Shown here: positions 7,470 to 63,246 of the stretch, piece by piece
How positions within the stretch are numbered: position 1 is the first letter of the stretch
Layout of the letters: every line of letters begins with the position of its first letter
Source: Streptomyces sp. NBRC 110028
GTDB lineage: Bacteria > Actinomycetota > Actinomycetes > Streptomycetales > Streptomycetaceae
Length of the DNA: 64,000 bases
Reading direction: 5' to 3'
Assembly (NCBI RefSeq): GCF_001417735.1
Contig: NZ_BBUZ01000022.1
Coordinates: forward strand, 620,001-684,000
Translations under genes and position numbers: made by a program
Notes under the pieces: generated by a model
Databases searched by the model: none
What the model was told of the DNA's origin: nothing
What the model saw: the letters and a program-made list of their open reading frames with translations, nothing else

Positions 7470-7645
7470 CGCCATCTCCCTCTGCTCTTGTACGTCTTCC
7501 GGTCGTCTTCGGCGCTCGTCGCGGTCTCGGCGCGTCGTCGGTGTGCAGCCGGCGCGTCTTCACACGACTGCGCGTTCTTCCGCGCGTGCAGGTCTTCTGC
7601 ACTGTTTCCGCGGCTTTCAAGCCTCTCAGATCATGGCGTCTCAGA

Positions 7646-47276: not shown

Positions 47277-47954
47277 CTACTCCGGTTCCACGGGCCGGAA
47301 ACCCCATTCGGTGGCCCTGGCGACGGCCTCCAGCTGCGAGCGGACCTCGAGCTTCTCCAGGATCTTGCGCACATGGGTGCGGACGGTCGCGTAGCTGATG
47401 AGCAAGCGCTCAGCGACGGCCCGGTTGTCCAGGCCCTGGCTCATCAGGGTGAGGATTTCCTGCTCGCGCCGGGTCAGGCTCTCCAGCCGCCCGGTCTGCT
47501 CGGCGGTCGAGCGCGCCGACTCGCGGTGCCGGGACAGCACCTCCACCAGCGTGCCGGCCGGGATCAGGGTCTCGCCCTCGGCGGCGGAGCGGATGGCGGA
47601 GGCGATCTCGTCGCCGCTCGCCGACTTCAGCAGATAGCCGCAGGCGCCCGCCTCCACCGCGGCCAGCAGCGCCGAGTCGCTGGCGTCGGCGCTGAGGATC
47701 ACGATCGCGGTGGAGGGATCATGGGCCCGGATGCCCGCGGCCGCGTCGGCCCCGGTGCCGTCGGGCAGCCGGAAGTCGACCAGGGCCACATCGGGTGACA
47801 GCTCCTTGGCCATGGGCACGGTCTCGGCGACCGAGTCCGCCCAGCCGACCACGGTCAGGTCGGCGTACTCGGCCAGCAGCGCCCACAGTCCCTCGGCGAC
47901 CACCCGGTGGTCCTCGACGATCAGGACCTTGGTCAGCTCCGCCGGGGCGGTCAC
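47277..47954 (-). CDS. NarL/LuxR-family response regulator
   Basis: This 225-residue regulator has receiver acidic pocket VEDH, phospho-Asp in VALVDFRLP and Lys in YLLKSAS. The LuxR HTH is LTRREQEILTLMSQGLDNRAVAERL followed by TVRTHVRKILEKL. GTG 47954 overlaps the stop of the PAS kinase (GTGA), so it is the output of that sensor. Its target genes are unknown; the polysaccharide locus upstream on the same strand is a candidate. Confidence 0.93.
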   Translation of the reverse strand: MTAPAELTKVLIVEDHRVVAEGLWALLAEYADLTVVGWADSVAETVPMAKELSPDVALVDFRLPDGTGADAAAGIRAHDPSTAIVILSADASDSALLAAVEAGACGYLLKSASGDEIASAIRSAAEGETLIPAGTLVEVLSRHRESARSTAEQTGRLESLTRREQEILTLMSQGLDNRAVAERLLISYATVRTHVRKILEKLEVRSQLEAVARATEWGFRPVEPE

Positions 47955-49870
47955 GGCTCCGGTTCCCCTTCCGGGGACGGGCAGCCGAGGGATGGCGCGC
48001 CGAGGGCCGGGATCGGCGGAGGATCGCTCAGCGGCACCCAGAACTCGACGGTGGTGCCCGCGCCCGGGGCGCTCTCGATACGGCACCAGCCGCCCGCGAT
48101 CTGGGCCCGTTCCTGGATCAGGGACAGCCCGAGGTGGCCGGGACGGGATTCGACCTCAAGGGGGTTGTAGCCCTGGCCGTCGTCGACGATCCGTACGAGA
48201 CAGCCCTCGTCGAGCCCGAGCAGCTGGACGTGCACCGTCTTCGCCCGCGCGTGCTTGCGCACGTTCATCAGGGCTTCCTGCGCGGTGCGGTAGATCAGCG
48301 CCATGGTCTCGGCGGGCGGCTTGGCCGCGAGCCGGTCCTCCAGCCGGTAGGTGAGGCCGGTCTCGGTGCGGATCTGCTCCAGCAGTCCGCGCAGCGCGGC
48401 GGCCAGGCAGCCGTGCTCCAGGCTGGACGGACGCAGGTCGAAGATCAGCTGGCGCAGCCGGCTGAGCGACAGCTTCAGGGTCTCGTCCAGCTTGTCCATC
48501 ACCCGCTGCTCCTCCGGGTCCCGCAGCCGCCGCCGCAGCTGCTGGAGCCGGAGGCTGGCCGCGGTGATCACCTGGATGGTGTCGTCGTGGATGTCCGCGG
48601 CGATCCGCCCGCGCTCGGCCTCCTGGGCGTGGACGAGATGGCTGAGCAGGGCCTGCCGGTCCCGGTCGGTGACCTCCAGCAGCTCCAGGCTGCGTTCCAG
48701 GACGAACTGGGCGCGCTGCACCTCGGTGATGTCGCGGACGGTCAGGACGGTCAGCAGACCCTCCTCGGTGCGCAGCGGGCTGATGCTGACGTCGGCCGGG
48801 AACTGCTTGGCGTCACTGCGCCGGCCGACCAGTTCCATGCTGTGGCCGAGCGGTTCCTCGGACTCGTCCCATTCGCGCAGCGAGACGGTCAGCGGCTGGT
48901 CGGGCAGCAGCGCCTCGACGGCGCGGCCGATGAGATGGTCGCGGTCGTAGCCGAAGAGGGCTTCGGTGCGGTTGTTGGCGGCCTGGATGCGCCCGGCGGT
49001 GTCCACGATCATCATCGCGTCCGGGGAGGACTCGATGAGCTGGCGGAACCGGCTCTCGGCGGCCCGCAGCTGGCTCAGGTCGGCGACGAAGACGACGCCG
49101 CGGGCCCGCTTTCCCTGCAGATGGCCGCCGCTGAACTGGGCGGGGAACTCGGTGCCGTCCCGGCGGCGGCCCGCCATCGCCGACGGGGCGCTGAACACCC
49201 GGCCGACGAGCTGTTCGGAGGCGGTGCGGTAGCGCTCGGGGACGAGGTCCCGCAGCCGCTTGTCGCGCAGCTCGGACGAGCTGTAGCCGAACATGTGCCG
49301 TACGTGTGCGTTCGCGAACTCGATCCGGCCGCGGGAGCCGAGGACCAGCACGCCGCAGGGGGCGTGGCCGAGCAGGTCCAGATACGACTCCTCCAGCCGG
49401 CCGCCCACCAGGTCCTCGAAGCGCCAGGCGGCGCGGTCGGCGCGGCGCAGGGGTTCCGCGCAGTCGGTGAGGAGGTCGGCGGACATGGAGAACTGGTCGC
49501 GGGCGGCCCGGTTGATCGCCTCGAGTATCTCCTCGGCGGGGGTGCCCTTGACCAGGTAGCCGGTGGCGCCGACGGCGAGCATGTTGAGGACGGTCTCGCG
49601 GTCGCCGTGGGCGGACAGCGCGACCACGCGGGCGCCGGGGGCCTGGTCACGGATGGCACGGACACTGCCCGGGGCGTCGCCCTTTGGCATGTGCACGTCC
49701 ATTACGACGACGCGGGGATGGTGTTCGACCGCCTCGTGCACGGCCTGCTCGTGGTCGGTGGCCAGCCCCACGAGTTCCAGGTCGGGGTGGGAGTCGATGA
49801 GGTCCGCGAGGGCTTCCCGGACTGCCGGGTCGTCATCGGCCACCACAACGTCGATCCGGTCGTCACCCAT
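47951..49870 (-). CDS. receiver-PAS-PAS-histidine kinase hybrid
   Basis: This 639-residue cytoplasmic sensor has an unusual order. It begins with a complete receiver (about 5-125; phospho-Asp in VVVMDVHMP, Lys in YLVKGTP), then two PAS domains (about 160-270 and 275-395). HisKA_3 (ERGRIAADIHDDTIQ) and HATPase (AQEALMNVRKHA, DDGQGYN) follow. The receiver at the front suggests it takes input from another kinase or is part of a phosphorelay. It is coupled (GTGA) to the downstream regulator and lies 2 bp after the 143-residue unknown protein gene. Confidence 0.9.
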   Translation of the reverse strand: MGDDRIDVVVADDDPAVREALADLIDSHPDLELVGLATDHEQAVHEAVEHHPRVVVMDVHMPKGDAPGSVRAIRDQAPGARVVALSAHGDRETVLNMLAVGATGYLVKGTPAEEILEAINRAARDQFSMSADLLTDCAEPLRRADRAAWRFEDLVGGRLEESYLDLLGHAPCGVLVLGSRGRIEFANAHVRHMFGYSSSELRDKRLRDLVPERYRTASEQLVGRVFSAPSAMAGRRRDGTEFPAQFSGGHLQGKRARGVVFVADLSQLRAAESRFRQLIESSPDAMMIVDTAGRIQAANNRTEALFGYDRDHLIGRAVEALLPDQPLTVSLREWDESEEPLGHSMELVGRRSDAKQFPADVSISPLRTEEGLLTVLTVRDITEVQRAQFVLERSLELLEVTDRDRQALLSHLVHAQEAERGRIAADIHDDTIQVITAASLRLQQLRRRLRDPEEQRVMDKLDETLKLSLSRLRQLIFDLRPSSLEHGCLAAALRGLLEQIRTETGLTYRLEDRLAAKPPAETMALIYRTAQEALMNVRKHARAKTVHVQLLGLDEGCLVRIVDDGQGYNPLEVESRPGHLGLSLIQERAQIAGGWCRIESAPGAGTTVEFWVPLSDPPPIPALGAPSLGCPSPEGEPEP

Positions 49871-49872
49871 CG

Positions 49873-50304
49873 CTACCCACCTCCCTTGAGGACGGCACCC
49901 TGCAGTTCGCGGGTGCTGAGTTCATCGCGCCGGCAGTGCGCCAGCGACGGCATGACCGCGGCGAGCGGCGCGACCAGCACGGTGTAGTGGCTTCCGATGC
50001 GATCGCACACGGCGACCGCCGCCGCGGCGTCCCACACCGCGGCCCAGAAGGCCCAGTCGTGACGGCGGTGGTTACGGGCCGCGTCCAGGGCGGCGCGGCG
50101 CGCGACGGCGGCGGCCACGAGGATGCGGTACCGCTCCTCGTCGGTCGTGGTGCGGTGGACCTCCGCCCACCCCTCGGCCCGGGTCTGGCTGGAGGTCTGC
50201 TTCCACAGATCGGCCACCCGGTCGATTTCTTCGGGGGAGAGGTCCTCGATATGGGTCAGGAACTGGAGGACTCTTCGCGAGTTGGGGCCGAAAATAATAC
50301 TCAT
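49873..50304 (-). CDS. unknown protein heading kinase operon
   Basis: This 143-residue protein of unknown function is mostly helical, with an Ala-rich core (VAAAVARRAALDAARNHRR, then WAAVWDAAAAVAVCDRIG). It has no signal peptide. The stop is 2 bp before the PAS-kinase start, so it is almost certainly translationally coupled and may act in that signalling pathway, for example as a sensor accessory. I do not recognise the family. Confidence 0.7.
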   Translation of the reverse strand: MSIIFGPNSRRVLQFLTHIEDLSPEEIDRVADLWKQTSSQTRAEGWAEVHRTTTDEERYRILVAAAVARRAALDAARNHRRHDWAFWAAVWDAAAAVAVCDRIGSHYTVLVAPLAAVMPSLAHCRRDELSTRELQGAVLKGGG

Positions 50305-50444: not shown

Positions 50445-51890
50445 CTAATCGTTCTGTCCGTGGCCCGAGGACATGTTGATGCTCGCCTTGGCGATGCCGC
50501 CGCTCTTCTGGCCGACGAGCTGGAAGGCGACGCCGTTCTCGTCGGCCGGGGTGATCCGGTACGAGCCCACAGCCGACGCCTTGCCGCGGCTGTCGACCTG
50601 GAAGGTCGCGATCTTCCGCTGTCCGGTGGAGCCGGACCCGGCGTACGCGGTCACCGTCTCGCCCGGGGCGAAGCCCGCGACGTAGAAGCTCAGCGTGGTG
50701 CCCGCCCGGCCGCCGAAGGCGCTGGGCTCGGCGGACGGGGTGTACGGCAGCACCGTGAACCCCGAGCGCACCACGGCCCGGCTCTGGTCGCCGATCGCCA
50801 TCAGCGTCTGCCGGCCCTTGAGCCCGAACGGCACGTTGAACGCCACGTCGCGGATCTGGCCCATGGCGTTCGCCTGGGCGGTGAAGGCGGGCAGCCCGCT
50901 GTTGCGGTTGATGTAGACCAGCACCCGCTCGCCGGGCGCGAACTTGTTGGCGGACAGCGTGATCCGCTGACCGGCCTTGAGCGCGTACGGCTTGGACTTC
51001 ATCGACGGGTACATGGCCAGCATCTGGAAGGGGGCGGTGGCCGTGGTCTTGCTGCGCTTGCCCACCAGCACCAGCGTGCTGTTGCCGGTCGGGGCCACCC
51101 CGACCTTGATGTCCGCGCGGCCCACGCTGCCGCCGCTGTCGGTGCGCAGCGTGGTGACGGGGACGCCGGTGGTCCGTCCCCAGAACACGTCGATCGACTC
51201 GCCGGGCCGGAAGCCGTGGGCGCTGACCGAGACGGTGTCGCCCGGCCGGCCGACCAGCTTGTTGATCCGCGCGGTGCCGACCGCGCCGCCGGTGATCACC
51301 TTGGCCTCGGCCGCGTTGGCGCTGCCGCGCTGCTGGGCGACGAGGGTGGCGGGCCGGCCGCTGTTGGACTCGGGCACGGTGAACCGGGCGTAGATCGAGC
51401 CGTAGCGGTCGGTGCGGACGCTGCCGATGGCCCGCCCCTTGGTGTCCGACGCCCGGGCCTTGAGCAGCAGGTCCACGGTGGACTTCTTGCCGAAGCCGCC
51501 GCCCTCGACCGTCGCCTTGCCGCCGGGGGTCACCAGGCCCGGGTTGAGCACGATGATCGGGCCGGACGCCTGCGGGACGCGCTGGTTGCCCAGCTTGATG
51601 GTCTTGGGCTGCTTGGGCGGCCGTATCTCCTGCCGCTCGTGCGGATGCCCCTTCTTCGGGGCTCCGCCGCCTCCGTTGCCGGTGGTGTCGAGGGCGCCAC
51701 CGAAGCCACCGCGCGCGATCACCTGCACGAGCGATCCGACGATCGCGAAGACCACGAGAGCGAGCAGGACCGTCTTCCAGGTGAGCTTCTTCTTGGGCTT
51801 GTCGCCCGGGTCGTTCCCGGCCGGGGATTCCTCCTCGTACTCGGGAACATCCCTGTCCTCCGGAACATCCCAGTCGTCGTACTCAGGCAT
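50445..51890 (-). CDS. membrane-anchored multi-domain surface protein
   Basis: This 481-residue protein has an acidic cytoplasmic N-terminus (about 1-35), one membrane helix (about 38-60) and a Gly-rich spacer. The large extracytoplasmic part contains repeated Ig/IPT-like units, recognisable from recurring 'GF-x-PGE' turns (for example GFRPGESIDVFWG and GFAPGETVTAYAG) at about 90-residue spacing. It has no catalytic motif. ATG 51890 has GGAGG eight bases upstream. It is the last gene of the glycosyltransferase operon and may bind or present the polymer (inference). Confidence 0.7.
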   Translation of the reverse strand: MPEYDDWDVPEDRDVPEYEEESPAGNDPGDKPKKKLTWKTVLLALVVFAIVGSLVQVIARGGFGGALDTTGNGGGGAPKKGHPHERQEIRPPKQPKTIKLGNQRVPQASGPIIVLNPGLVTPGGKATVEGGGFGKKSTVDLLLKARASDTKGRAIGSVRTDRYGSIYARFTVPESNSGRPATLVAQQRGSANAAEAKVITGGAVGTARINKLVGRPGDTVSVSAHGFRPGESIDVFWGRTTGVPVTTLRTDSGGSVGRADIKVGVAPTGNSTLVLVGKRSKTTATAPFQMLAMYPSMKSKPYALKAGQRITLSANKFAPGERVLVYINRNSGLPAFTAQANAMGQIRDVAFNVPFGLKGRQTLMAIGDQSRAVVRSGFTVLPYTPSAEPSAFGGRAGTTLSFYVAGFAPGETVTAYAGSGSTGQRKIATFQVDSRGKASAVGSYRITPADENGVAFQLVGQKSGGIAKASINMSSGHGQND

Positions 51891-51914
51891 GGCCTTCACC
51901 TCCTCTTCCCGCGG

Positions 51915-53624
51915 CTATTGCACCCGGTAGATTTCGAGCTTGATGTTGCCCTGGACGTCCGCCCAGACCCGGTCGGAATTCTGCAGGGCCCGTAGGATCC
52001 AGTTTTCGCGGCCGTCGGCGTTGTTTGTCGCCATCGACTTGCGCATCTTGTTCGACAAGATGATGTAGTCGATGTTCTGCCATCTCTTTTTGAACAGCTT
52101 GTCGCGCACATCGGGGTCGGACGAGGCGTTCCAGTGCGAATGCGCATAGGGATAGAACGGGCGCACATCGTGCAGCTCTCCCCATAGGTCGTCGTCCATG
52201 ATGATGCGTGAATTTGATGGCACGTGTTTGCGTATCCAGGCGATCTGATCATGCTGCATTTTGGTGAGATTCAGCTTCGACTGGTACTGGTCGGCGATCT
52301 GCACATGGCCCTCGGTATTGGTGTGCACCAGATATCCGGAGGACGGTGATATCAGCAGGACGACCACGACCAGCGAGGGCACGGCGACCCGGACCATCGA
52401 ATGCGCCTGGCGCATGAAACGGCTTTTGAACGAGGCCTTCAGCAGCCGGTCCGCTGCCATCCCGATGCTGATCGCGAACATGGGGATCAGCGGGGTGACG
52501 TAGAAGTCCAGCACCACACTGCCGCGCAGCAGATAGAAGGTGTAGCCGAAGGCCAGGGTGCCGACGATCAGGTAGCCCAGGTTGCGCTGCCGGTCCCGCA
52601 GCCCCCACCACAGGCACAGCAGCATCGCGCCGAACCCGGTGATCAGCATGAACGAGTCGCGCATCAGCCAGCTCGTGTACAGCAGCCCGTTGTGGCTGAG
52701 CAGATTGCCCTGGCTGCGGTTGAGCTGCCACCACAGGGTGTAGAGCAGCGAGACGTGGTCCGCGGGCGGGTTGTTCAGGTCGAAGTCGAAACTGCTCGGC
52801 AGCAGCTCGTTCTTGAGCAGCGCGTACGTCACATAGGCGCCGATCGGAGCCGCCGCGGCGAACGGCCAGAGCGTCCGGAGGAACCGGTGGCTCGCCGACC
52901 CCTTGATCCGCCGGTAGAGCAGATAGACGAAGCTCGGCACGAAGAAGATCGCGTTTTCCTTGGTGATCAGCGCGAGCCCCAGGGCCAGACCGCCGCCGAA
53001 CACCGATCTGATGGTGGTCTCCCGGCGCAGCAGCGCGAACAGGCTCAGCAGCAGCCAGAACATCATCAGGTTGTCCAGCAGCACCTGGCGCTGGTAGTAG
53101 ACCGCGATCGGCGAGACGTTGAAGAAGAACGCGGCGATGGTGGCGGCCAGCGTGCTGCCCGACAGCCGCCGGGTGACCTCGAACAGCAGATAGACGCTCG
53201 CGACATGCACCAGCAGCATCAGGAAGCGACCGGTGTTGATCGCGTTGCCGAACGTCTCGAACTGCTTCGGCAGCGGGAAGACCCAGCCGGCCAGCGTGAT
53301 CCAGCCCGCCGGGGCGTGGTCGTAGTCGTAGGTGTAGGGGGACAGGCTGGTCTCGCGCACCAGCGACCAGGCCCGCTGCATGTAGATGCCCTCGTCGGTG
53401 AGGTAGAGGGGGTAGCGGAACAGGTGGTAGCCGTGGGTGAGCGCTCCGGTCAGCAGGGAGAGCACCAGGGCGATCCGCCCGGCGTTCCCCAGCGGCGGGA
53501 ACCAGCCGCGCTCCACGGAGAACCGGCGGCGGCGCCGCGCGGGGGGCCGCTGCGGGGCGGCCCGGTCCTGGTCGACGGTGACCGGGTTCGAGGGTGCCCG
53601 GTGGGGCACGGGGTCATGCGACAC
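51915..53624 (-). CDS. GT39/ArnT-type membrane glycosyltransferase
   Basis: This 569-residue integral membrane protein has about 12 hydrophobic segments. The first extracytoplasmic loop carries the acidic pair in YLTDEGIYMQRAW and then DHAPAGW, as in PMT/ArnT (GT-C) enzymes that use polyprenyl-phosphate sugars. A soluble C-terminal domain (about 440-569) follows. It probably adds sugars to protein or polymer outside the membrane. GTG 53624, with GGAGGCGGAG upstream, overlaps the GT2 gene end by 11 bp; the longer upstream frame is noise. Confidence 0.87.
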   Translation of the reverse strand: MSHDPVPHRAPSNPVTVDQDRAAPQRPPARRRRRFSVERGWFPPLGNAGRIALVLSLLTGALTHGYHLFRYPLYLTDEGIYMQRAWSLVRETSLSPYTYDYDHAPAGWITLAGWVFPLPKQFETFGNAINTGRFLMLLVHVASVYLLFEVTRRLSGSTLAATIAAFFFNVSPIAVYYQRQVLLDNLMMFWLLLSLFALLRRETTIRSVFGGGLALGLALITKENAIFFVPSFVYLLYRRIKGSASHRFLRTLWPFAAAAPIGAYVTYALLKNELLPSSFDFDLNNPPADHVSLLYTLWWQLNRSQGNLLSHNGLLYTSWLMRDSFMLITGFGAMLLCLWWGLRDRQRNLGYLIVGTLAFGYTFYLLRGSVVLDFYVTPLIPMFAISIGMAADRLLKASFKSRFMRQAHSMVRVAVPSLVVVVLLISPSSGYLVHTNTEGHVQIADQYQSKLNLTKMQHDQIAWIRKHVPSNSRIIMDDDLWGELHDVRPFYPYAHSHWNASSDPDVRDKLFKKRWQNIDYIILSNKMRKSMATNNADGRENWILRALQNSDRVWADVQGNIKLEIYRVQ

Positions 53625-54909
53625 GCGACTCCGCCTCCTCGGTCGGGCCCCGGTGGGCGCCCACGTGCTGTGTCTTCTCCCAGTCGTGGCGGCCGGCCAG
53701 CTGCCGCCGCATGGCCCGCAGCGCGGCGTACGCGAGGACCATCTGGAACGGGAACCAGGCGATCGCCATCCGGACGACGGCCTTCGGCGAGGCTTCGAGC
53801 CCATGGGCGTCGGTGAACTCGTACAGGCCGACCATCTGCACCAGGAAGTGCGCGACCAGCAGCAGTACGGGCAGATACGAGCAGAGCGCGATCAGCACCG
53901 GCACCTTGAGGATCAGGATCATGCCGAGCGAGAGCGGCAGATAGAGGCCGAGCAGCGCCTGCCCACGCGGGAACACCAGCACGTAGAAGGCCAGCCAGCG
54001 CTGTTTGCGCGTCGGCATCTTCTTCCAGGTGCCCTTCTTCAGGGTCTGCATGAAGCCCTGGCTCCAGCGGGTGCGCTGCCGGATGAAGTGGCCGAGGGTG
54101 GGCGGGGTCTCCTCCTTGGTCACATACCGGTCGTCGTAGACCACGCGCACCCGCTCGCCCATGGCCGAGATCCGCAGGCCCATGTCCGCGTCCTCGGTGA
54201 GGTTGCGGTCGTCCCAGCCGCCGAGCTTCAGCAGCAGCTCGCGGGAGAAGAAGACGGTGTTGCCGCCGAGCGGGATGGAGCCGTGGTGGGCGTGGTAGTG
54301 CAGCCGGCTCTTGAACCAGAAGAAGTACTCCAGGACGTTCAGCGTGGAATACCAGTTGGACTGGTAGTTCATGAGCTGGACGCCCGCCTGCACCACCCGG
54401 ACCCGCTCCTTCACCATCACGGTGTTGACGAGCCGGAATATCTTCGGGTGGATGTCGTCCTCGGCGTCGAAGATGGTCACGACCTGGTTGGCGGTCTGCG
54501 GCAGGGCGGTGTTGAGCCCGTGCGGCTTGTTGATCGGCCCGTCGTCGAAGACCACGACCCGCACGTTGTGCAGCCCTTCCCGGGCCAGCTGGTCGATCTT
54601 CTCCTCGGCCTTTTTCACGGTGCCGTCGTCGTCCTGTGAGCAGATCACGAAGACCTCCAGCAATTCGGCCGGATAATCGGCGCGCACCACCCGCTCGATC
54701 GTGGACTGGATGACGTCTTCCTCATGCCGGGCGGGCAGCAGCACGCTGAAGGAGAGCCGCGGCGGAATGAAGGTCTCCGGCGCCCGGGCCTTCCGCTCGG
54801 CGTCCGCCCGGTCCCAGGTGTAGAGCATGAGGTACAGGACGTGGCTCGACTGCACGGTGAGCAGCACCGAGACCGACACCAGCACCAGATAGACGATCGG
54901 GATCATCAT
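53614..54909 (-). CDS. processive-type GT2 glycosyltransferase
   Basis: This 431-residue membrane GT2 resembles cellulose/hyaluronan-type synthases. An N-terminal membrane helix is followed by the GT-A domain with SVLLPARHEE, DxD-type IFDAEDD, the acceptor-site LTEDADMG and the QxxRW motif in RQRTRWSQGF. At least three C-terminal helices (about 325-410) can form the translocation channel. This motif set indicates processive beta-linked polymer synthesis. ATG 54909 overlaps the GtrA stop (ATGA) and has GGAGG upstream. No PilZ domain is present. Confidence 0.88.
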   Translation of the reverse strand: MMIPIVYLVLVSVSVLLTVQSSHVLYLMLYTWDRADAERKARAPETFIPPRLSFSVLLPARHEEDVIQSTIERVVRADYPAELLEVFVICSQDDDGTVKKAEEKIDQLAREGLHNVRVVVFDDGPINKPHGLNTALPQTANQVVTIFDAEDDIHPKIFRLVNTVMVKERVRVVQAGVQLMNYQSNWYSTLNVLEYFFWFKSRLHYHAHHGSIPLGGNTVFFSRELLLKLGGWDDRNLTEDADMGLRISAMGERVRVVYDDRYVTKEETPPTLGHFIRQRTRWSQGFMQTLKKGTWKKMPTRKQRWLAFYVLVFPRGQALLGLYLPLSLGMILILKVPVLIALCSYLPVLLLVAHFLVQMVGLYEFTDAHGLEASPKAVVRMAIAWFPFQMVLAYAALRAMRRQLAGRHDWEKTQHVGAHRGPTEEAESRVA

Positions 54910-55406
54910 CGGCTTCGCCTCCCCCACACCCAGCCGGTACTGCACACGAAGTTGACCGCGAACGCGGCGGCGATGCCGAGGCAATTCGCCAGCAGGAGAT
55001 GCATTCCGGCGTGCACCAGAGACCAGACGAGCACGACGTTGATCGCGAGTCCGCCCAGCACGGATATGTTGAATTTGACGAAACGTCCGGTCGACGGCGT
55101 GCGCAGGGCGAAGGTCCACCGGTCGTTGAGCAGATAGTTGTGGACCACGGCCAGTTCCACCGCGATGCCGGACGCCACCAGAAGCGGTAGTCCCACCCAG
55201 TGGTAGAGCGCGAAGAGCGCTGCCGAATTCACCAGCACACCGCCCCCGCCGACCACCGCGAACCGCAGCGCCAGACCGGGCAGACCCGCCGTCCTCCGCC
55301 GCGGTGAACCGATCCGGACAGGGCTCCCGTTTCGCCGGTGGGTGGTCACGTCCGCTCGATCGCCCGGCTCTCCGGTGCGCTCACTGAACGTTCGGAAACG
55401 CTGCAT
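54906..55406 (-). CDS. GtrA-family membrane protein
   Basis: This 166-residue protein has four membrane helices (about residues 45-160) with the GtrA pattern FAVVGGGGVLVNSAALFAL and YLLNDRWTF. GtrA proteins are implicated in moving polyprenyl-phosphate sugars across the membrane for GT-C enzymes. That fits the GT39-type gene in the same operon. The ATG at 55406 has GAGGGAG upstream. It is the first gene of the leftward operon; 278 bp separate it from the divergent pseudo-subtilase gene. Confidence 0.87.
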   Translation of the reverse strand: MQRFRTFSERTGEPGDRADVTTHRRNGSPVRIGSPRRRTAGLPGLALRFAVVGGGGVLVNSAALFALYHWVGLPLLVASGIAVELAVVHNYLLNDRWTFALRTPSTGRFVKFNISVLGGLAINVVLVWSLVHAGMHLLLANCLGIAAAFAVNFVCSTGWVWGRRSR

Positions 55407-55684
55407 CGCGACTCCCTCGACAGGAGGCTCTTATCGCCGTCGAGTCCCAGAGTGCGTCACCCGCAAAGGAGGTAGTACCCGCGCTCGGGGGAGCGGTGAG
55501 TGCACCTTCGGCGGACCTCTTTCCTCCCCCATTTCGGGGAGCGCCGCCTCTCCGGCCCCGGGCCTTTCCCCCGAAGAGGGGAAGGGCGGATCCCTCGCCC
55601 GCGGGTGTCAGTACTTCCGGGGGCTGCCCAAGATGAAAGGGGCCCGACGGCCTTGCGTCCCGTGTGATGAGAGTAGGTGACGTA

Positions 55685-56857
55685 ATGTCAGGTCACGTGA
55701 TGTCACGCCATCCATGCGCCGGCCGGGCCGGAGTGGTCATCGCAGCGATGACCCTCGCACTGGCCACGCCGGCCGCGGCGAGTGATTCCGGCAGCGGTGC
55801 GTTGCACGATTCCGAATGGGCGCTCACCGCGCTCAAGGCGGAGCGCGCGTGGAAATTCAGCAAGGGTGCCGGAGTGACCGTCGCGGTCGTCGGCACCGGG
55901 GTGGACGCGACTCATCCGGATCTGCGCGGGCGGGTCGCCGCCGGAAAGGATTTCGCGGGCGGCGGCAGCCCCGTCACCCGGGACGACGCAAACGCGGACG
56001 AGCAGGGCACCCACGCCGCGGGCATCATCGCGGGCACCGGCCGCAATTACCGCGGCGACGGGGTGTACGGGCTCGCGCCCCGGGCCCGGGTCATGCCGCT
56101 CGGGGTGTACCGCAACGGAAAGCCCCAGGCCGAGGCCACCGCCCGGGCCATCCGCCACGCGGCGAGCCACGGCGCGCACATCATCCATGTGGCCGTGTCC
56201 TTCAAGCACCCCAGCCCCGCCCTGAAGTCCGCGGTGAAGTACGCCGCGACCCAGGACGCCGTGGTCGTGGCGGGCGCCGGGGACAACGGCAAGGACGGCA
56301 ACCGGCCCACCTACCCGGCCGCCCTCCCCGGGGTGGTCGCCGTCGTGGCCACCGACAAGAAGGGCGCCGTGTGGACCTCGTCCCACCACGGCAGGGGCAT
56401 CACCCTCGCCGCGCCCGGAGTCGCCATCCTCACCACGGCGGGCAACAACGACTACTGGACCGGCGACGGCACCGGCTACGCCGCGCCCTGGGTCGCCGCC
56501 GGAGCGGCGCTGCTGCGCTCGGAGCACCCCCGCTGGAACTCCCGGCAGATCGTCCGGAAGCTGATCGACACGGCCGACCGGAAGGGCTCGGCGGGCCACG
56601 ATCCGCGCTACGGCTACGGGGTGATCGCCCCCGCCAGGGCGCTCGCGGACCGGGCCGCGCCGCCGCCCTCCGCCGAGCCCACCGCGGCCCCCTCCCCGCA
56701 CCGCACCGAACCGGCCGCCGCCTCCCATGCGGCGGGGGATGAATCCGCCCTGGTCACGATAGGAGTGGTGGCCGGGGTGCTGGTCGTGCTCGCGGTGCTG
56801 GCCGTGGTGCTCATCAGCCGCCGCCGCCCGCCGCCCGGCGACTCCCACCACAGCTGA
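55685..56857 (+). CDS. catalytically inactive subtilase (pseudo-mycosin)
   Basis: This 390-residue S8-fold protein has a signal peptide (residues about 1-33) and a subtilase domain (about 45-320). A Pro-rich stalk and a C-terminal membrane helix ending SRRRPPP follow, the architecture of mycosins. The catalytic Asp position is Gly70 (VVGTGVD for the usual DTGVD) and the Ser position is Gly264 (GTGYAAP for GTSxAAP). The oxyanion Asn segment is altered (AGDNG). Only the His (EQGTHAAG) remains. The frame is intact. Starts at ATG 55685 or 55700 lie in a 15-bp imperfect duplication. No type VII secretion genes are nearby. Confidence 0.82.
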   Translation: MSGHVMSRHPCAGRAGVVIAAMTLALATPAAASDSGSGALHDSEWALTALKAERAWKFSKGAGVTVAVVGTGVDATHPDLRGRVAAGKDFAGGGSPVTRDDANADEQGTHAAGIIAGTGRNYRGDGVYGLAPRARVMPLGVYRNGKPQAEATARAIRHAASHGAHIIHVAVSFKHPSPALKSAVKYAATQDAVVVAGAGDNGKDGNRPTYPAALPGVVAVVATDKKGAVWTSSHHGRGITLAAPGVAILTTAGNNDYWTGDGTGYAAPWVAAGAALLRSEHPRWNSRQIVRKLIDTADRKGSAGHDPRYGYGVIAPARALADRAAPPPSAEPTAAPSPHRTEPAAASHAAGDESALVTIGVVAGVLVVLAVLAVVLISRRRPPPGDSHHS

Positions 56858-56872
56858 CCGGCGGAGGTGGCG

Positions 56873-57946
56873 ATGTTCACCGAACCGCGCGACCGCGCCG
56901 ACCGGGCCCGCCCGCCGGCGCGGTCGCGCCGTGCCTCATGGCTGAGCCGCGGCATGGCCCAGTTGCTGGTCATGGTGCTGGTGGCCGAGGTCGTGATGGC
57001 CGTCACCACGGTGCGCACGCTGCTGCGGCCCGCGGCCACCCCTTCCCACAGGCCCTCACTCTCCGTGGCCAAGCCGTTCTATCCCGCGACGACCCGCTTC
57101 TACACCGACCCGCACAACCCCGCCGCGTCCTGGGTGCGCGCCCATCCGCGCGACCGGCGGGCGGCGGCCATCCGCGGGCGCATCGCCGACCAGCCGCAGG
57201 CCGCCTGGTTCACCGAGACCAACGAGTCGCTGGTCGAGGACCGGGTCCGGGGCCTGGTCGGCACGGCCGCGGCCCAGCGGCGGCTGCCGGTCCTGGTCGC
57301 GTACGCCATCCCGCAGCGGGACTGCGCGCAGTACAGCTCCGGCGGCAGCGGCGACGCGGGCGTCGCCTACCGGCGCTGGATCGACGCGTTCACCCGGGGC
57401 GTCGGTGACCGGCCCGCCCTGGTCGTCCTCGAACCGGACGCCCTCGCCCACGTGGGCTGTCTGCGCAAGCGGCAGCGTGCGGAGCGGTTCGCCGCCCTCG
57501 CGTACGCGGCCCGGACGCTCAAGGCGCGGGCCCCGCGCGCCCGGGTCTACTACGACGCCGGGAACTCCGGCTGGCAGCCCGCGCGCACCATGGCCGGGCG
57601 GCTGCGGCGCGCCGGTATCGACCGGTACGGGGACGGCATCGCGGTCAACGTCTCCAACTTCAACGCCACCGGCGACGAGGTGCGCTACGGCCTGACCGTG
57701 CTGCGCGAGCTGCGCCTCCCCCGGCTGGGGGTCGTGGTCGACACCAGCCGCAACGGGGCGGGGCCCACCTCCAAGCACCAGTTCTGCGATCCGCCGGGCC
57801 GCAGACTGGGCCGGACCCCCACGGCGGCCACCGGGATCCCCGGGATCGACGCCTTCCTGTGGATCAAGCAACCGGGGCAGGCGGACGGCTGCGCGGCCGG
57901 TGCGGGTGTCTTCCTCCCCGGCTACGCGTACCGGCTGACCGGCTGA
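56873..57946 (+). CDS. membrane-anchored GH6 endoglucanase-family enzyme
   Basis: This 357-residue protein has a basic N-terminus, one membrane helix (about 28-50) and a GH6 catalytic domain. The first Asp region is YAIPQRDCAQYSSGGS, the general acid is in VVLEPDAL, and there is a VVDTSRNG segment. The C-terminal substrate loop is FLWIKQPGQADG. GH6 enzymes cleave beta-1,4-glucan with inversion. It lies outside the membrane, tethered, as expected for polymer remodelling at the synthase. ATG 56873 follows GGAGG, 15 bp after the pseudo-subtilase stop, so the two form an operon. Confidence 0.9.
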   Translation: MFTEPRDRADRARPPARSRRASWLSRGMAQLLVMVLVAEVVMAVTTVRTLLRPAATPSHRPSLSVAKPFYPATTRFYTDPHNPAASWVRAHPRDRRAAAIRGRIADQPQAAWFTETNESLVEDRVRGLVGTAAAQRRLPVLVAYAIPQRDCAQYSSGGSGDAGVAYRRWIDAFTRGVGDRPALVVLEPDALAHVGCLRKRQRAERFAALAYAARTLKARAPRARVYYDAGNSGWQPARTMAGRLRRAGIDRYGDGIAVNVSNFNATGDEVRYGLTVLRELRLPRLGVVVDTSRNGAGPTSKHQFCDPPGRRLGRTPTAATGIPGIDAFLWIKQPGQADGCAAGAGVFLPGYAYRLTG

Positions 57947-57968
57947 TCCTCGCCCGGTAGGCATCCCC

Positions 57969-57998
57969 AGGGGCCCCGCGGACCTCCGCGGGGCCCCT
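57969..57998 (+). terminator. terminator after GH6 gene
   Basis: AGGGGCCCCGCGGA and its complement form a 14-bp stem with a 2-nt CC loop, 22 bp after the stop. Confidence 0.85.
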
Positions 57999-58065
57999 TC
58001 GTGTGCCCTCGCACGCTCCCTCGCGCACCCTCCACCACCTCCGCGAAACGGACATAACCCATATA

Positions 58066-58162
58066 AAACGGCCGAATTTCGCTACCTCAACTGAGGTAGT
58101 CGGAATTCGGCCGTTTGGCGTGCCCTGAATTCCTGCAATTGAGGTATCCAGATTTCGGTCGT
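58066..58162. promoter_or_regulatory. inverted-repeat operator cluster
   Basis: A long near-perfect palindrome (58066-58116) has outer arms AAACGGCCGAATT/AATTCGGCCGTTT and inner arms CTACCTCA/TGAGGTAG. A third, direct, degenerate copy (TGAGGTA...GATTTCGGTCGT) lies at 58140-58162. The three related half-sites, two facing and one repeated toward the receiver gene, look like a transcription-factor site array rather than a terminator. Confidence 0.6.
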
Positions 58163-58239
58163 GCGTACGGTGTTTCGAGCCCCGGGTTTTTCTAATGTCG
58201 GTGAGCGACAGGACAAAAAAGCCCGAAGGAGCTCCATCG

Positions 58240-58587
58240 ATGCAAAGAGTTCTCGTCGTGGAGCACCACACCCAAGTGCTGAGTGCTCTCGCTGATCTCG
58301 TGATCGAGGAGCCGGGACTGGAGTTGTCCGGAATTGCCGGATCGGCCCGGGAGGCAATTTCTCTGGCCCGAGCGGCGCAACCGGATGTGGTGCTGATCGA
58401 TGTGGACGGGCCCGGCTGGAAGGACCAGGGTCTTGACCGCCTCATCGGCGACCTCCTCCCACAGGCGCGGATTGTCCGGCTGACCGCCGTATCCGACCCC
58501 CAAATGGAATGCCTGGAATCTCCGACGAATACCCCCAGCATCCTCAAGACCGAAATACGCGAATTCCTCAGGAGTATCACCGAATGA
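58240..58587 (+). CDS. stand-alone receiver-like protein
   Basis: This 115-residue response-regulator receiver domain has no output domain. Phospho-Asp (VVLIDVDG), Thr (RLTAVS) and Lys (SILKTE) positions are kept. The acidic pocket is EHH instead of the usual pair of acidic residues, so Mg-dependent phosphorylation may be weak. ATG 58240 has AAGGAG eight bases upstream. The stop overlaps the GH5 start (ATGA), tying its synthesis to the enzyme. It may be a phosphorelay modulator for the kinases at 44.8-50 kb (inference). Confidence 0.75.
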   Translation: MQRVLVVEHHTQVLSALADLVIEEPGLELSGIAGSAREAISLARAAQPDVVLIDVDGPGWKDQGLDRLIGDLLPQARIVRLTAVSDPQMECLESPTNTPSILKTEIREFLRSITE

Positions 58588-59870
58588 ATTCCCCCATGGA
58601 CCAGAACAACGTCCCGACCAACCCCGAGACCACCGAGACGAAGCGCGCTCCGCGCTCCCGCCGTCTGCGTATGGGTATCGCCGCGGCCGTCGTCGCTGTC
58701 GCTGCCGTGGGTGGCACCGTCACGGCGTTCACCATGAACTCCGACGACTCGGGCTCCTCGTCCTCGGTCGCCGCGGGCAAGCCCGCCGGTTCGCAGGTGA
58801 AGTTCCCGCTGTCCACCAAGAAGGGTGACATCGTGGACTCGCAGGGCCACAAGGTCGTCCTGACCGGTGTGAACTGGTTCGGTTCCGAGACCGGCACCTT
58901 CGCGCCGCACGGCCTGTGGGCCCGCAGCTGGGAGTCCATGCTGGACCAGATGGCGAAGCAGGGGTTCAACACCATCCGCTTCCCCTACTCGAACGAGATG
59001 TTCGACGCCAAGAGCAAGCCCAACGGGATCGACTTCAAGAAGAACCCCGACCTGAAGGGCCTCACCGGCCAGCAGATCATGGACAAGATCGTCAAGGGTG
59101 CCACCGACCGGGGCATGATGGTGATCCTGGACCAGCACCGCCCGGACCAGTACGGCCAGAGTGAGCTGTGGTACTCCCAGAACCTCACCGAGAAGAAGTG
59201 GCTGGGCGACTGGGTCAAGCTGGCCGAGCGCTACAAGAACAACGACCGGGTGATCGGCGCCGACCTGCACAATGAGCCGCGTGGCCAGGCCACCTGGGGC
59301 GACGGCAACCCGAAGACCGACTGGCGCCTGGCGGCCACCAAGGCCGGTAACGCGATCCACAAGGTCAACAAGAACTGGCTGATCTTCGTCGAGGGCACCG
59401 ACCGCCACAAGAACGAGCAGTTCTGGTGGGGCGGCGACCTCCAGGGTGTGAAGAAGTACCCGGTGAAGCTGGACGAGGGCAACAAGGTCGTCTACTCGGC
59501 CCACGACTACGGTCCGGGCGTCTTCAACCAGAACTGGTTCCAGGCGAAGGACTTCCCGAAGAACATGCCCGCCATCTGGAAGAAGCACTGGGCCTACATC
59601 AAGCAGCAGAACATCGCTCCGGTGCTGCTGGGTGAGTTCGGCGGCCGCAAGACCGCGGGCAACAGCACCGAGGCCATCTGGCAGAACGCCCTGATGGACT
59701 ACCTGAAGAAGAACGGCATCAGCTACACCTACTGGACCTGGAACCCGGACTCGGGGGACACCGGCGGTGTGCTGAACAAGGACTGGAAGACGATCGACAA
59801 GAACAAGATGAAGATGCTGTCCGACTACCAGATGCCTCTGCTGCAGCCGAAGGGGAAGACGTCGGAGTGA
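58584..59870 (+). CDS. membrane-anchored GH5 cellulase-family enzyme
   Basis: This 428-residue protein has a short cytoplasmic N-terminus, one membrane helix (about 29-51), a Ser/Gly linker and a GH5 barrel. The acid/base Glu is in DLHNEP and the nucleophile Glu is in LLGEFGG, with conserved LDQHRPD and SAHDYGPG segments. Retaining hydrolysis of beta-1,4-glucan is expected, at the outer face of the membrane. The coding sequence uses noticeably more AAG and AAC codons than its neighbours. It is coupled by ATGA to the receiver gene and followed by a strong terminator. Confidence 0.9.
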   Translation: MNSPMDQNNVPTNPETTETKRAPRSRRLRMGIAAAVVAVAAVGGTVTAFTMNSDDSGSSSSVAAGKPAGSQVKFPLSTKKGDIVDSQGHKVVLTGVNWFGSETGTFAPHGLWARSWESMLDQMAKQGFNTIRFPYSNEMFDAKSKPNGIDFKKNPDLKGLTGQQIMDKIVKGATDRGMMVILDQHRPDQYGQSELWYSQNLTEKKWLGDWVKLAERYKNNDRVIGADLHNEPRGQATWGDGNPKTDWRLAATKAGNAIHKVNKNWLIFVEGTDRHKNEQFWWGGDLQGVKKYPVKLDEGNKVVYSAHDYGPGVFNQNWFQAKDFPKNMPAIWKKHWAYIKQQNIAPVLLGEFGGRKTAGNSTEAIWQNALMDYLKKNGISYTYWTWNPDSGDTGGVLNKDWKTIDKNKMKMLSDYQMPLLQPKGKTSE

Positions 59871-59941: not shown

Positions 59942-60115
59942 CGTCGTGTCCGCGCCCTGGAAGGCCTGTAAGACCTGTAGGGCCTGGAAGGCCCGGAAAA
60001 GTGCCGAAAGCCGGGAAAGTCACGGATGGAGGGAAGCGGGACGCGCTCCCGCCGGGTTTCCCTCCCGGGCCCGGCCCGTGCCACGGACCGGCCCCGGCAT
60101 CCAGGGAGGCCGCCC

Positions 60116-60802
60116 ATGAACCCCCACCAGCACACCGGCCGGCTGCTCTTTCCGCTGGCCGCGCTCATGGTGATCGCGGCCGACCAGGTGAGCAAGGCGC
60201 TCGCGGTGGCCGCCTGGAGCGGTACCTGGGGGCCACAGGCCCGGCTGGGACCGTTCCGCGCGGTGCTGGTGCACAACGCGGGCGTGGCCTTCGGGCTGGG
60301 GAACGGCCGCCCGGCGCTGATCACCATGATCACTCTCACCGGCGCGGTCGCCACCCTGGCCGCCGTGTGCGCGGGGCTGCGAGCCCACGGCCGGGGCCTG
60401 GCCTGCGGCATGGCGCTGATCGCCGGGGGCTCGGTCGGCAACGGCGCCGACCGGGTGGTGCGGGCGCCGGGCCCGCTGCGCGGCGCCGTGGTCGACTGGA
60501 TCACGGTGGCGGGGCGCGGCCCGGTGTTCAACCTGGCCGATGTCGCCCTCGTCACCGGGACCCTGCTCACCGCGGCCGTACTGCTGTGCTCCGCCGCGCG
60601 GCGGCCCCGCGTCAGCCTCCGGACTTGCGCACCGCGCTCGGCCCCGACCCCGACCCCGACCCCGGCCCCGACCCCGGCCCCGGACCCGGGTCCGCCCCCG
60701 GCTCCCGGGTGTTCTCCCGCTCCGCGATCGAGGCCGCGAACTCCTTCAGCCGCGCCAGCGCCGCTTCGTCGGTCACCCCCCGGGAGGCCAGCGCGCTGGT
60801 GA
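60116..60802 (+). CDS. lspA: lipoprotein signal peptidase
   Basis: This aspartyl membrane protease cleaves prolipoproteins. The catalytic Asp motifs are GNGADRVVR with VVDWI, and FNLADVAL. About four helices lie in residues 10-165. After residue 165 the protein is a Pro/Thr/Ala tail (PTPTPAP repeats) caused by running, without a stop, into the 3' part of the convergent anti-sigma gene (60612-60983), so the overlap is 191 bp. ATG 60116 has GGAGG six bases upstream. The family is normally about 160-200 residues, so the tail is probably dispensable. Confidence 0.88.
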   Translation: MNPHQHTGRLLFPLAALMVIAADQVSKALAVAAWSGTWGPQARLGPFRAVLVHNAGVAFGLGNGRPALITMITLTGAVATLAAVCAGLRAHGRGLACGMALIAGGSVGNGADRVVRAPGPLRGAVVDWITVAGRGPVFNLADVALVTGTLLTAAVLLCSAARRPRVSLRTCAPRSAPTPTPTPAPTPAPDPGPPPAPGCSPAPRSRPRTPSAAPAPLRRSPPGRPARW

Positions 60803-60983
60803 CGCGCTGGTAGAGGGACAGCTCACGGGCGCAAGCGTGGCACTCCGCCACATGGGCCCGTACCCGGCTCGCGTCCGGCGCGTCCAGTTCGCCGTCGAGG
60901 TACGACTGGAGCATCGGCGCGCCCACCGGGCACTCTCTCGTCCGGCGCCGCTCGGTGTCGCGCCACCATGTCCATCGGCTCAT
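60612..60983 (-). CDS. zinc-binding anti-sigma factor
   Basis: This 123-residue zf-HC2/ZAS-type anti-sigma factor has no membrane segment. The zinc motif is in AHVAECHACAREL (H-x3-C-x2-C), with an earlier Cys at residue 18. The tail is a Gly/Pro/Ser repeat (GPGPGSGPGSG), read from the opposite strand of the LspA tail repeats. The soluble ZAS form suggests redox sensing, as for RsrA. The start overlaps the ECF sigma stop (ATGA), forming a coupled sigma/anti-sigma pair. Confidence 0.83.
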   Translation of the reverse strand: MSRWTWWRDTERRRTRECPVGAPMLQSYLDGELDAPDASRVRAHVAECHACARELSLYQRVTSALASRGVTDEAALARLKEFAASIAERENTREPGADPGPGPGSGPGSGSGSGPSAVRKSGG

Positions 60984-61534
60984 GCCTCACCTCGCTCGGG
61001 TTCCCGTCCGGTGCGCCCCGCGGCCAGCAGCTGGTTCCGGATCCGCCTCCGGGCCCGGTGCAGCCTGCTCATCACCGTGCCCTTGGGGACGTCCAGCACC
61101 TGCGCCGCCTCCGCGTACGACAGCCCGTCCACATGGACCAGCCGTACGACCTGCTGGTCACGGAGCGGCAGTGCGGTGAACGCGGCGTCCACGGCCTCGT
61201 CGAACGCGGTGTCCACCACCAGTTCCTCCGGGGTGGCGTCGCGGGCCGGGGAGAGCCGTTCCAGCTCGGTGTCCGGGTCGTCCAGCAGGCGGGGCCGACG
61301 CTGGCGGCGCCGGCTCACCTCCGCGTGCCGCATGATCGTCAGCAGCCAGGCCCGTGGATGTCTCCCGTCAAAACGGCCGACTGCCCGGTACGCCCGTAGT
61401 AACGTGTCCTGCACGAGATCTTCGGCGTCGGCGCGCTGAGCGGTCAGAGACATCGCCACGCGCAGCAGCACCTCGATCTCGGGCAGCACGTACTGGGTGA
61501 ACATGCGTTGCTGATGGGCGTCCGGGTCAGCCAC
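60980..61534 (-). CDS. ECF sigma factor
   Basis: This 184-residue extracytoplasmic-function sigma factor has region 2 (QRADAEDLVQDTLLRAYRAVGRFDGRHPRAWLL) and region 4 (LPLRDQQVVRLVHVDGLSYAEAAQVLDVPKGTVMSRLHRAR). GTG 61534 is set by GGAGG five bases upstream. It is paired with the zinc anti-sigma factor downstream (ATGA overlap) and sits next to a second, separate ECF/anti-sigma pair on the same strand. Confidence 0.92.
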   Translation of the reverse strand: MADPDAHQQRMFTQYVLPEIEVLLRVAMSLTAQRADAEDLVQDTLLRAYRAVGRFDGRHPRAWLLTIMRHAEVSRRRQRRPRLLDDPDTELERLSPARDATPEELVVDTAFDEAVDAAFTALPLRDQQVVRLVHVDGLSYAEAAQVLDVPKGTVMSRLHRARRRIRNQLLAAGRTGREPERGEA

Positions 61535-61676
61535 GTGTGCCTCCTCGGATCCGGACCCCCCGGGGACGCGAAAGCGACATATCACACTCTGTGTAACATC
61601 TCGCTCACGGCGTCGCACGGGGTGGTCGGCGATCCGGGTGACACGGCGGCCGGCGGGGCTGTTCGGGCAGGGCTGG

Positions 61677-62492
61677 TTACGCCTTGACGGAGACCAGCCG
61701 CTTGCCATCGCTCGTGCGGACCTCGAAGCGATCGATGTCGTCGCTCTTCATGCCCGCTCCGCCGTGTGCCCACAGCGGCTTCTTCGCGATCTCCTCGGTG
61801 CTGTTCTCGATCCCGTAGCCCCACTTGGGCACGGCCCAGGTCATCATGGTCTGCTCATGACCGTCCTTGGAGATCGCGACGAGGCTGCAGTTGAGCGGGC
61901 CCTTGACGTTCTTCAGCCGCAGTACGGCGTCGACGCCCCACATCTTGTCCTGCAGCGCGACCGCCGCCGACACCTTGGTGGTCGGGTCGGTGCCCTCCAT
62001 CTTCATCGGCATCTTGGCGAAGAGCGCGCTGTCGGTCGGGCTCGCCGCGACGGGCGCCTTGGAGTCGGAGCCCGAGGTGGCGGCCATCGTGCCGAGCGGT
62101 CCGCCGACGATCAGGGCGGCCGCCGCCGCGACCAGGTACAGGCCGCGCCGCTTGCGCTTGCTGCGGGCCGCGGCGACCTCGCCGACCATGCGGTTCAGCA
62201 GGGCGGGGCCGGGCTTTGCGGTCAGGGTGTCGATGGCGGTCGGGGTGGCGGTGAACGCGTGCGGGGTGTGGCCCGTGATCGCGGTCCGGCCGGGCGCCCC
62301 ATGGATGCCGGGGATGTCCGCCGCGAGGTCCGCCAGCAGGGGTTCCAGTCCGGTCAGCTCGTCGAGCTGCCGTCCACACTGGTCACAACCGGCCAGATGC
62401 TCCTCGAAATAGGTGGCGTCCGCCTCGTCGAGCACGCCGAGCACATACGCGCCAACGGCGTCGTGTCCCGCGTGGTGCGCCTGCGCTGTCAT
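61677..62492 (-). CDS. membrane zf-HC2 anti-sigma factor
   Basis: This 271-residue anti-sigma factor has an N-terminal zinc-type domain (HDAVGAYVLGVLDEADATYFEEHLAGCDQCGRQ, with HxxxC-type spacing) and a basic stretch KRKRRGLY. One membrane helix (about 118-138) and an extracytoplasmic C-terminal RskA-like domain with an AVAL...MWGVDAVLRL core follow. It probably releases its sigma factor after extracytoplasmic proteolysis. Its start overlaps the upstream ECF gene stop (ATGA). Confidence 0.87.
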   Translation of the reverse strand: MTAQAHHAGHDAVGAYVLGVLDEADATYFEEHLAGCDQCGRQLDELTGLEPLLADLAADIPGIHGAPGRTAITGHTPHAFTATPTAIDTLTAKPGPALLNRMVGEVAAARSKRKRRGLYLVAAAAALIVGGPLGTMAATSGSDSKAPVAASPTDSALFAKMPMKMEGTDPTTKVSAAVALQDKMWGVDAVLRLKNVKGPLNCSLVAISKDGHEQTMMTWAVPKWGYGIENSTEEIAKKPLWAHGGAGMKSDDIDRFEVRTSDGKRLVSVKA

Positions 62493-63085: not shown

Positions 63086-63246
63086 CAACTGACGACTCCC
63101 GGTCTGTGCCCCGGGGGGGTTGGGTGGCCATGTCGGCCTCTTCCTCCCTTCGTACGGACGGGAGGGGGCGGCCACTCAACGCGTCGGGAAGAAAGTTCCG
63201 ATCAGTTCCTGGAGTTGCCCGGAGGGAGAGGTGGTGAGCGGTGGTC

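Follow-up and report, generated by a model that had tools for sequence, protein, structure and literature searches.

A GtrA membrane protein and a GT-C transferase are usual parts of three-component glycosylation systems. In Streptomyces, the described cslA-glxA-cslZ locus combines cslA-glxA with a divergent GH6 gene, as given in excerpts of its description (PMC9040799). ESX complexes depend on mycosins for their stability, although secretion does not need the proteolytic activity of MycP1 (PMC5082899). Here we describe a block of genes at positions 50445-59870 of the window, by which we mean the whole stretch of 64,000 nucleotides analysed from Streptomyces sp. NBRC 110028 (genome G000, contig C22, positions 620001-684000). 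On balance, its sequences suggest that the block is a module for β-1,4-glucan synthesis and remodelling that is coupled to lipid-linked sugar transfer. A limited search of the open-licence literature, in which some term sets were narrow, found no prior description of this gene set. Every gene named in a preliminary description of the window was recovered in its place by gene calls and family searches, and those of the block are as follows.

54906-55406, minus strand: GtrA/DPMS-type membrane protein, candidate lipid-linked-sugar flippase (PF04138, 87.5 bits)
53614-54909, minus strand: GT2 with cellulose-synthase-like motifs DAED, TED and QRTRW (PF13641, 132 bits)
51915-53624, minus strand: GT39-like membrane glycosyltransferase (PMT_2, PF13231, 42.4 bits; PMT, 32.6 bits)
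50445-51899, minus strand: Ig-like protein with a predicted membrane anchor (no Pfam match; one predicted transmembrane segment)
55664-56857, start uncertain within 55664-55700, plus strand: mycosin-type pseudo-subtilase with a C-terminal transmembrane segment (PF00082, 136 bits)
56867-57946, plus strand: GH6 β-1,4-glucanase with an N-terminal hydrophobic segment (PF01341, 186 bits)
58195-58587, plus strand: receiver-only protein (PF00072, 24.9 bits, under the cut-off of 30.2)
58509-59870, likely start 58584, plus strand: GH5 endoglucanase, endocellulase E1-like, with an N-terminal hydrophobic segment (PF00150, 198 bits)

The four minus-strand genes had been proposed to form one operon, and their arrangement bears this out: the ATG of the GT2 gene overlaps the stop codon of GtrA, the GTG start of the GT39-like gene overlaps the end of GT2, and the Ig-like gene begins 15 bases beyond the GT39-like gene. 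Both the PMT_2 and the PMT scores of the GT39-like protein exceed the Pfam cut-offs. On the plus strand, 9 bases separate the open reading frames (ORFs) of the pseudo-subtilase and GH6, and the likely ATG of GH5 at 58584 overlaps the stop codon of the receiver gene.

The preliminary description made its proposal depend on finding the genes together in other genomes, and 24 other Streptomyces loci indeed carry the block. A GT2 scan of one genome per species returned 28 loci: these 24, three from Chloroflexota and one short match of 59 residues (L079) that was dropped from all counts. GT2 identity to the window was 76-97% in the Streptomyces loci and 63-64% in the three Chloroflexota loci, with Streptomyces himastatinicus the nearest named relative found (GT2 97% identical). 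Gene order is kept in the 24 Streptomyces loci, running from GH5 through the receiver, GH6 and the pseudo-subtilase to the divergent GtrA, GT2, GT39 and Ig-like genes, and on to a gene for a 143-aa protein, a hybrid kinase and a LuxR regulator. Since it recurs in this way, the block is not a chance assembly. Counting for each gene only the loci whose contig covers it, the pseudo-subtilase, GtrA and GT2 were each present in 24/24 loci, and GH5, the receiver, GT39, the Ig-like protein, the 143-aa protein, the hybrid kinase and the LuxR regulator each in 22/22 (L054 was left out of the receiver count, its row being the receiver of the kinase). GH6 was present in 21 of 23, being missing in L068 and L069. 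Because the 143-aa protein, the kinase and the LuxR regulator keep their place, the module exceeds the limits first drawn for it and extends to about 47277. Beyond GH5, a flank with sigma factor and LspA genes is common to the window and 14 loci, and other flanks were found in nine; the contig of L054 does not cover its flanks. In L055 (S. violaceusniger NBRC 13459), the matches to GH5 and to GH6 are both split in two, a sign that the record may contain frameshifts.

Both glucanases of the block are close to solved cellulases. The best structure matches of GH5 are cellulases (endocellulase E1, 1ece, 2.2e-113), and the family match is joined by both catalytic Glu motifs, found in 25/25 aligned rows, as in a GH5 cellulase. 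The catalytic Asp motifs of GH6 are present in the window copy and kept over 22 rows, save in L052, where three of the motifs are masked (N), and in L055, whose row is truncated. The two enzymes had been described as anchored; each does carry one N-terminal hydrophobic segment, which may be either an anchor or a signal peptide.

We then have the Chloroflexota, in which 40 of the 47 GT2 matches were read as loci (seven were not fetched), with GH5 and GH8 labels carried over from separate searches. The partners of GT2 there were a GT39-like protein in 38 of the 40 loci, an Ig-like protein in 9, GtrA in 7 and a GtrB-type synthase in 7, and the glucanases were GH5 in 16 (that of L077 being a fragment at a contig end) and GH8 in 7, with some cellulase in 23. 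GT39, Ig-like and GH5 occurred jointly with GT2 in 7/40 loci, and co-occurrence thus extends beyond Streptomyces only in part. In 16/47 cases a GH5 gene was found no more than about 10 kb from GT2, versus 0.61 expected from GH5 density, a figure in which related genomes are not independent. The GH5 of one such locus, L075, carries a cellulose-binding CBM3 domain that scores over the cut-off, and that of L076 carries one below it. A glucose/sorbosone dehydrogenase with a C-terminal cupredoxin domain is also encoded beside GT2 at L075:2790-5531 and L077:1267-3996 (the cupredoxin of L077 is under the cut-off), and is a possible counterpart of the copper oxidase GlxA.

Of all these associations the firmest is a domain fusion of the GT39-like part with a glucanase. 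Among 13 GH8 matches in 37 genomes, 9 adjoin GT2, always after the GT39-like part, and 2 of these 9 are from Actinomycetota (G606, G814), the others from Chloroflexota. In 7 of the 9, GH8 and PMT lie in one ORF that exceeds both Pfam cut-offs; the ORF of L135 scores 21.0 for PMT against a cut-off of 22.7, and that of L121 has GH8 only. The fusion ORFs, 884-1030 aa in length, lie beside GT2 in L127, L134, L135, L122, L124, L138, L120 and L123. The Glu that we take to be the GH8 acid motif is kept in 6/9 of these domains. In the GT39-like protein itself, the DE motif is kept in 26/26 aligned rows. The Ig-like protein has one predicted transmembrane segment at residues 44-62, and its AlphaFold2 model (mean pLDDT 72.8) consists of tandem β-sandwich domains. 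The best Foldseek match of this model is an adhesin repeat (6xi3), with query-normalised TM-scores of 0.16-0.24 among the 50 matches listed; this names a type of fold and not a relative. Orthologues of the Ig-like protein exist in Chloroflexota, and the L075 copy has a LysM domain over the cut-off.

Several findings connect the Streptomyces genes to Chloroflexota. With at most four candidates scored per genome, making the counts lower bounds, close GT2s (E ≤ 1e-130) were found in at least 34/400 Chloroflexota genomes versus at least 4/396 from Actinomycetota, our own genome included. No GT2 above 47% identity was found in 36 other genomes of the same genus, where the matches are a separate paralogue. 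A GT2 tree was built from 71 rows, after 21 of 92 had been removed as redundant; L168 yielded no row. Its 13 Streptomyces locus GT2s are a single clade (SH-aLRT 100), which in turn belongs to a larger clade shared with 10 Chloroflexota GT2s (support 98). The paralogues from the same genus and the same order form another clade (support 98), and grouping the locus GT2s with them was rejected (p-AU 8.6e-52, for a group picked with the tree already known). The GH5 tree, which has midpoint rooting only and was built without L147, which was too short, groups the Streptomyces locus enzymes with GH5s of Chloroflexota GT2 loci, with L075, L115 and L118 nearest (supports 84 and 80), and apart from four sampled cellulases of the same genus; that half of the tree also holds two further GH5s from Actinomycetota. 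Identity to the window GH5 was 42-58% for the Chloroflexota locus enzymes and 41-49% for Actinomycetota relatives outside the locus. Because the Streptomyces GT2 nests inside Chloroflexota and the GH5 tree agrees, lateral transfer of the cassette is likely; GT2 and GH5 probably moved together, and the gene set, carried by a few Streptomyces from soil, was apparently acquired from Chloroflexota. GH6 and the pseudo-subtilase look like Streptomyces additions, since tblastn retained no match to either in the Chloroflexota loci.

The window GT2 has the DxD-type, TED and QxxRW motifs of CESA-like enzymes. Over 48 aligned rows, QRTRW is kept in all 48, as is FDAED or FDSED, and the next motif reads TED in 29 and AED in 19. 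Its NCBIfam scores, all of which fall below the family cut-offs, are 72 bits for the XrtP-associated glycosyltransferase, 71 for NfrB-like, 70 for PgaC, 66 for EpsU and 50 for CelA, and for the lipid types 36 (HpnI), 29 (HpnB) and 28 (MftF). Motifs and family scores thus favour polymer-making kin, and from the cellulase partners we infer that the product is a β-glucan.

A doubtful but serious alternative is that the block is a three-component glycosylation system, in which a non-processive GT2 would attach a single sugar to a lipid carrier or a lipid-linked oligosaccharide, GtrA would flip it, the GT39-like enzyme would glycosylate a protein at the surface (the Ig-like protein, for example), and the cellulases would tidy the glycan. 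GtrA and GT39 in the window would fit such a system, as do the GtrB-type synthases of the seven Chloroflexota loci, and a number of findings weigh against a glucan synthase. In a search of solved structures (34-row profile, PDB), BcsA scored 3.4e-15 and PcManGT, a minimal CESA-like mannosyltransferase that is presumably a non-processive N-glycan enzyme, was almost level at 1.4e-13, and these were the two best solved relatives. No grouping with non-processive lipid glycosyltransferases, which the preliminary description named as a result that would count against it, was seen, although one is conceivable: NCBIfam ranks the lipid types lower, and the structure profile is split between BcsA and PcManGT. 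The GT2 has only three or four hydrophobic segments, two of four peaks overlapping, a low number for a synthase that secretes its product. In PcManGT there are three antiparallel transmembrane helices (PMC10569066), and the topology of GT2 is possibly compatible with a single-transfer enzyme. An AlphaFold2 model of GT2 (14 rows) was rejected as too poor to use (pLDDT 50.7). Seventeen of the 40 Chloroflexota loci, some of them on short contigs, have no cellulase. Twenty paralogue loci (16 from the same genus and four from the same order) pair GT2 with GT39 and gave no match to the window GH5, GH6 or GH8, and for that reason the GT2-GT39 pair alone can do something else. Finally, the aligned acid Glu is lost from the GH8 domains of L120, L121 and L123 (3/9), which may be pseudo-glucanases. 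Against single-sugar transfer stand the invariance of QRTRW in every GT2 row, the ranking of PgaC- and NfrB-type families above the lipid types, and the recurrence of GH5, GH6 or GH8 beside GT2 or fused to its partner.

It is improbable that the plus-strand half is an environmental set for sensing and degrading cellulose that merely neighbours a glycosylation operon. The closeness of GH5 and GH6 to solved cellulases and the two-component genes nearby would agree with this; however, GH5 shows the same kinship between phyla in its tree as GT2 does, both halves stay together in the 24 loci, and the N-terminal hydrophobic segments are long, which suggests that the enzymes are tethered, though the segments may also be signal peptides.

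The subtilase was called dead in the preliminary description, and rightly so: in the window, G, Q and G stand in place of the catalytic D, H and S. Its nearest named family is the type VII secretion system (T7SS) mycosin family TIGR03921 (260.8 bits, under the cut-off of 278.75), and it has a C-terminal hydrophobic segment. In 25/25 copies D is replaced by G, H by Q, the oxyanion N by D, and S by G or A, and in 10/10 other mycosin-like matches of the same genome D, H and S are intact. The ratio of nonsynonymous to synonymous substitution rates (dN/dS) is 0.24-0.45 in seven close pairs, within the range of the neighbouring genes. Since loss of the triad is fixed in all 25 copies and dN/dS is well under 1, the pseudo-subtilase appears to be kept as a non-enzyme. 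That it is instead a decaying, roleless remnant of a T7SS locus is very improbable: three mycosin matches with WXG100-like neighbours (named by eye) do lie on one other contig (C40), but the same positions are replaced in every copy, dN/dS is low in the seven pairs and the gene is present in 24/24 loci. Given that mycosins stabilise ESX while MycP1 proteolysis is dispensable for secretion, a scaffold role is a natural guess by analogy.

From the observed gene content, conservation, Chloroflexota kinship of GT2 and GH5, and intact and lost residues, we infer the polymer, its donor, the role of each protein and a complex as follows. The glucan synthesis and remodelling module would belong to the cell surface, where it looks fitted to produce and trim a cellulose-like coat. 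The donor for GT2 would be a nucleotide sugar of the cytoplasm (UDP-glucose being the most likely), from which it would build, at the membrane, a cellulose-like chain with β-1,4 linkages. A second arm would consist of GtrA and the GT39-like enzyme, in which a polyprenyl-phosphate sugar is flipped across the membrane and its sugar moved, outside the membrane, onto the glucan chain or the anchored Ig-like protein, itself a putative scaffold or attachment site. Tethered GH5 and GH6 would trim or release the glucan, the non-cutting, mycosin-derived pseudoprotease would hold the assembly together, as mycosins do for ESX complexes, and the linked kinases and regulators would set expression. We tentatively extend this to a more specific proposal, which is possible though rather unlikely in full: an undescribed, cross-phylum system in which the polyprenyl-phosphate-dependent GT-C enzyme and the CESA-like synthase would both work on one β-1,4-glucan, a view suggested by the GT39-GH8 fusions. 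The surface Ig-like protein would then decorate the glucan or be its covalent anchor, and in Streptomyces the dead mycosin would have been recruited as a structural subunit. The loss of the cutting residues in every copy read points to a mode of bacterial surface construction that has not been described before.

If the module acts as proposed, the cellulose-like polymers of filamentous bacteria would have a second, laterally moving synthesis system, one that joins chemistries usually treated apart, namely glucan synthesis driven by sugar nucleotides and the transfer of lipid-linked sugars. What the GT39-like partner acts on can be approached directly through the GT39-GH8 fusions, and the pseudo-subtilase beside intact glucanases is a clean test case for a structural mycosin fold outside type VII secretion.

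The regulatory genes and other neighbours of the block are the following.

49873-50304, minus strand: conserved 143-aa protein, function not assigned (no Pfam or NCBIfam match)
47951-49870, minus strand: hybrid sensor with receiver, PAS, PAS, HisKA_3 and HATPase domains (Pfam)
47277-47981, minus strand: LuxR-type response regulator (PF00072 and PF00196)
46435-47124, minus strand: second LuxR-type response regulator (Pfam; synteny)
44795-46450, minus strand: GAF-HisKA_3 histidine kinase (Pfam; synteny)
43927-44727, minus strand: polyprenyl-synthetase-like protein, loosely linked (PF00348, 70.9 bits; loci of both clades)
42451-43593, plus strand: GH8 glucanase, peripheral (PF01270, 54.6 bits)

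The second LuxR-type regulator (46435-47124) and the GAF-HisKA_3 kinase are found in many of the loci, but loci beyond the violaceusniger clade arrange them differently. The receiver-only protein keeps its phospho-acceptor Asp, and the usual DD pair reads EH, EP, ES or EY, such that the acidic pocket is altered in 23/23 receiver rows, the window included and L054 left out. In both clades of Streptomyces the polyprenyl-synthetase-like protein is encoded close to the locus; its Asp-rich motifs are altered in the window, judged by eye, and L060 keeps the first of them, which makes it a possible second pseudoenzyme. The nearby GH8 that had been linked to the block does match its family, and lies about 7 kb away. 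An 88% identical copy stands beside the same neighbour in S. himastatinicus, and no GH8 match was found in the limited flanks read of two genomes of the other clade; on this evidence, GH8 at 42451 was not adopted as a core part. On the other side, a signal peptidase II gene (PF01252) lies beside GH5 in a violaceusniger-type flank (60026-63175), and beyond it follow opposite-strand sigma factors with zinc-finger or anti-sigma-like partners, partly named by eye.

Compared with cslA-glxA-cslZ (with lpmP), the window locus shares a CESA-like GT2 and a divergent GH6 β-1,4-glucanase. It differs in that neither glxA nor a lytic polysaccharide monooxygenase is among the proteins of the block (Pfam), in that GtrA, GT39, the Ig-like protein, the pseudo-mycosin and GH5 are added, and in GT2, which is a different and shorter protein, with 431 aa versus 642 aa for the CslA-like protein of the same genome. 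The absence of glxA had been pointed out before and holds for the block, though elsewhere in the genome, on contig C34, a galactose-oxidase-like gene lies beside a GH6 gene and accounts for the sole PF09118 match. The 642-aa CslA-like gene lies beside a separate GH6 gene on C29, which we dropped as the canonical csl locus, the galactose-oxidase-like gene being at C34. At C34 (L177), positions 6701-7475 hold cslA-like sequence in three frames that covers only residues 268-611 of the CslA-like protein, directly downstream of an ORF that is recombinase-like by eye; this suggests that the C34 cslA is broken or misassembled. The window locus is a different system from either of these.

With BcsA and its GH8 glucanase BcsZ, the locus shares a QxxRW GT2 and a dedicated glucanase, which is GH8 in some relatives; it differs in having a GT39-like partner and no PilZ or BcsB match among the window proteins scanned (Pfam), and its GT2 scores 50.2 bits for BcsA/CelA (TIGR03030) against a cut-off of 699.1. 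With the GtrA-GtrB-GtrC system it has GtrA and a GT-C transferase in common, and GtrB in some relatives (7/40 Chloroflexota loci), but it differs in having a QxxRW-type GT2 and cellulases in linkage. The T7SS mycosin MycP resembles the pseudo-subtilase in subtilase family and C-terminal transmembrane segment, whereas the window protein is under the family cut-off, with all four catalytic positions replaced, and no other T7SS family was found among the proteins of the block (Pfam, NCBIfam). Judged by these family comparisons, the window locus falls outside the BcsA, csl (glxA) and mycosin groups, yet resembles parts of each.

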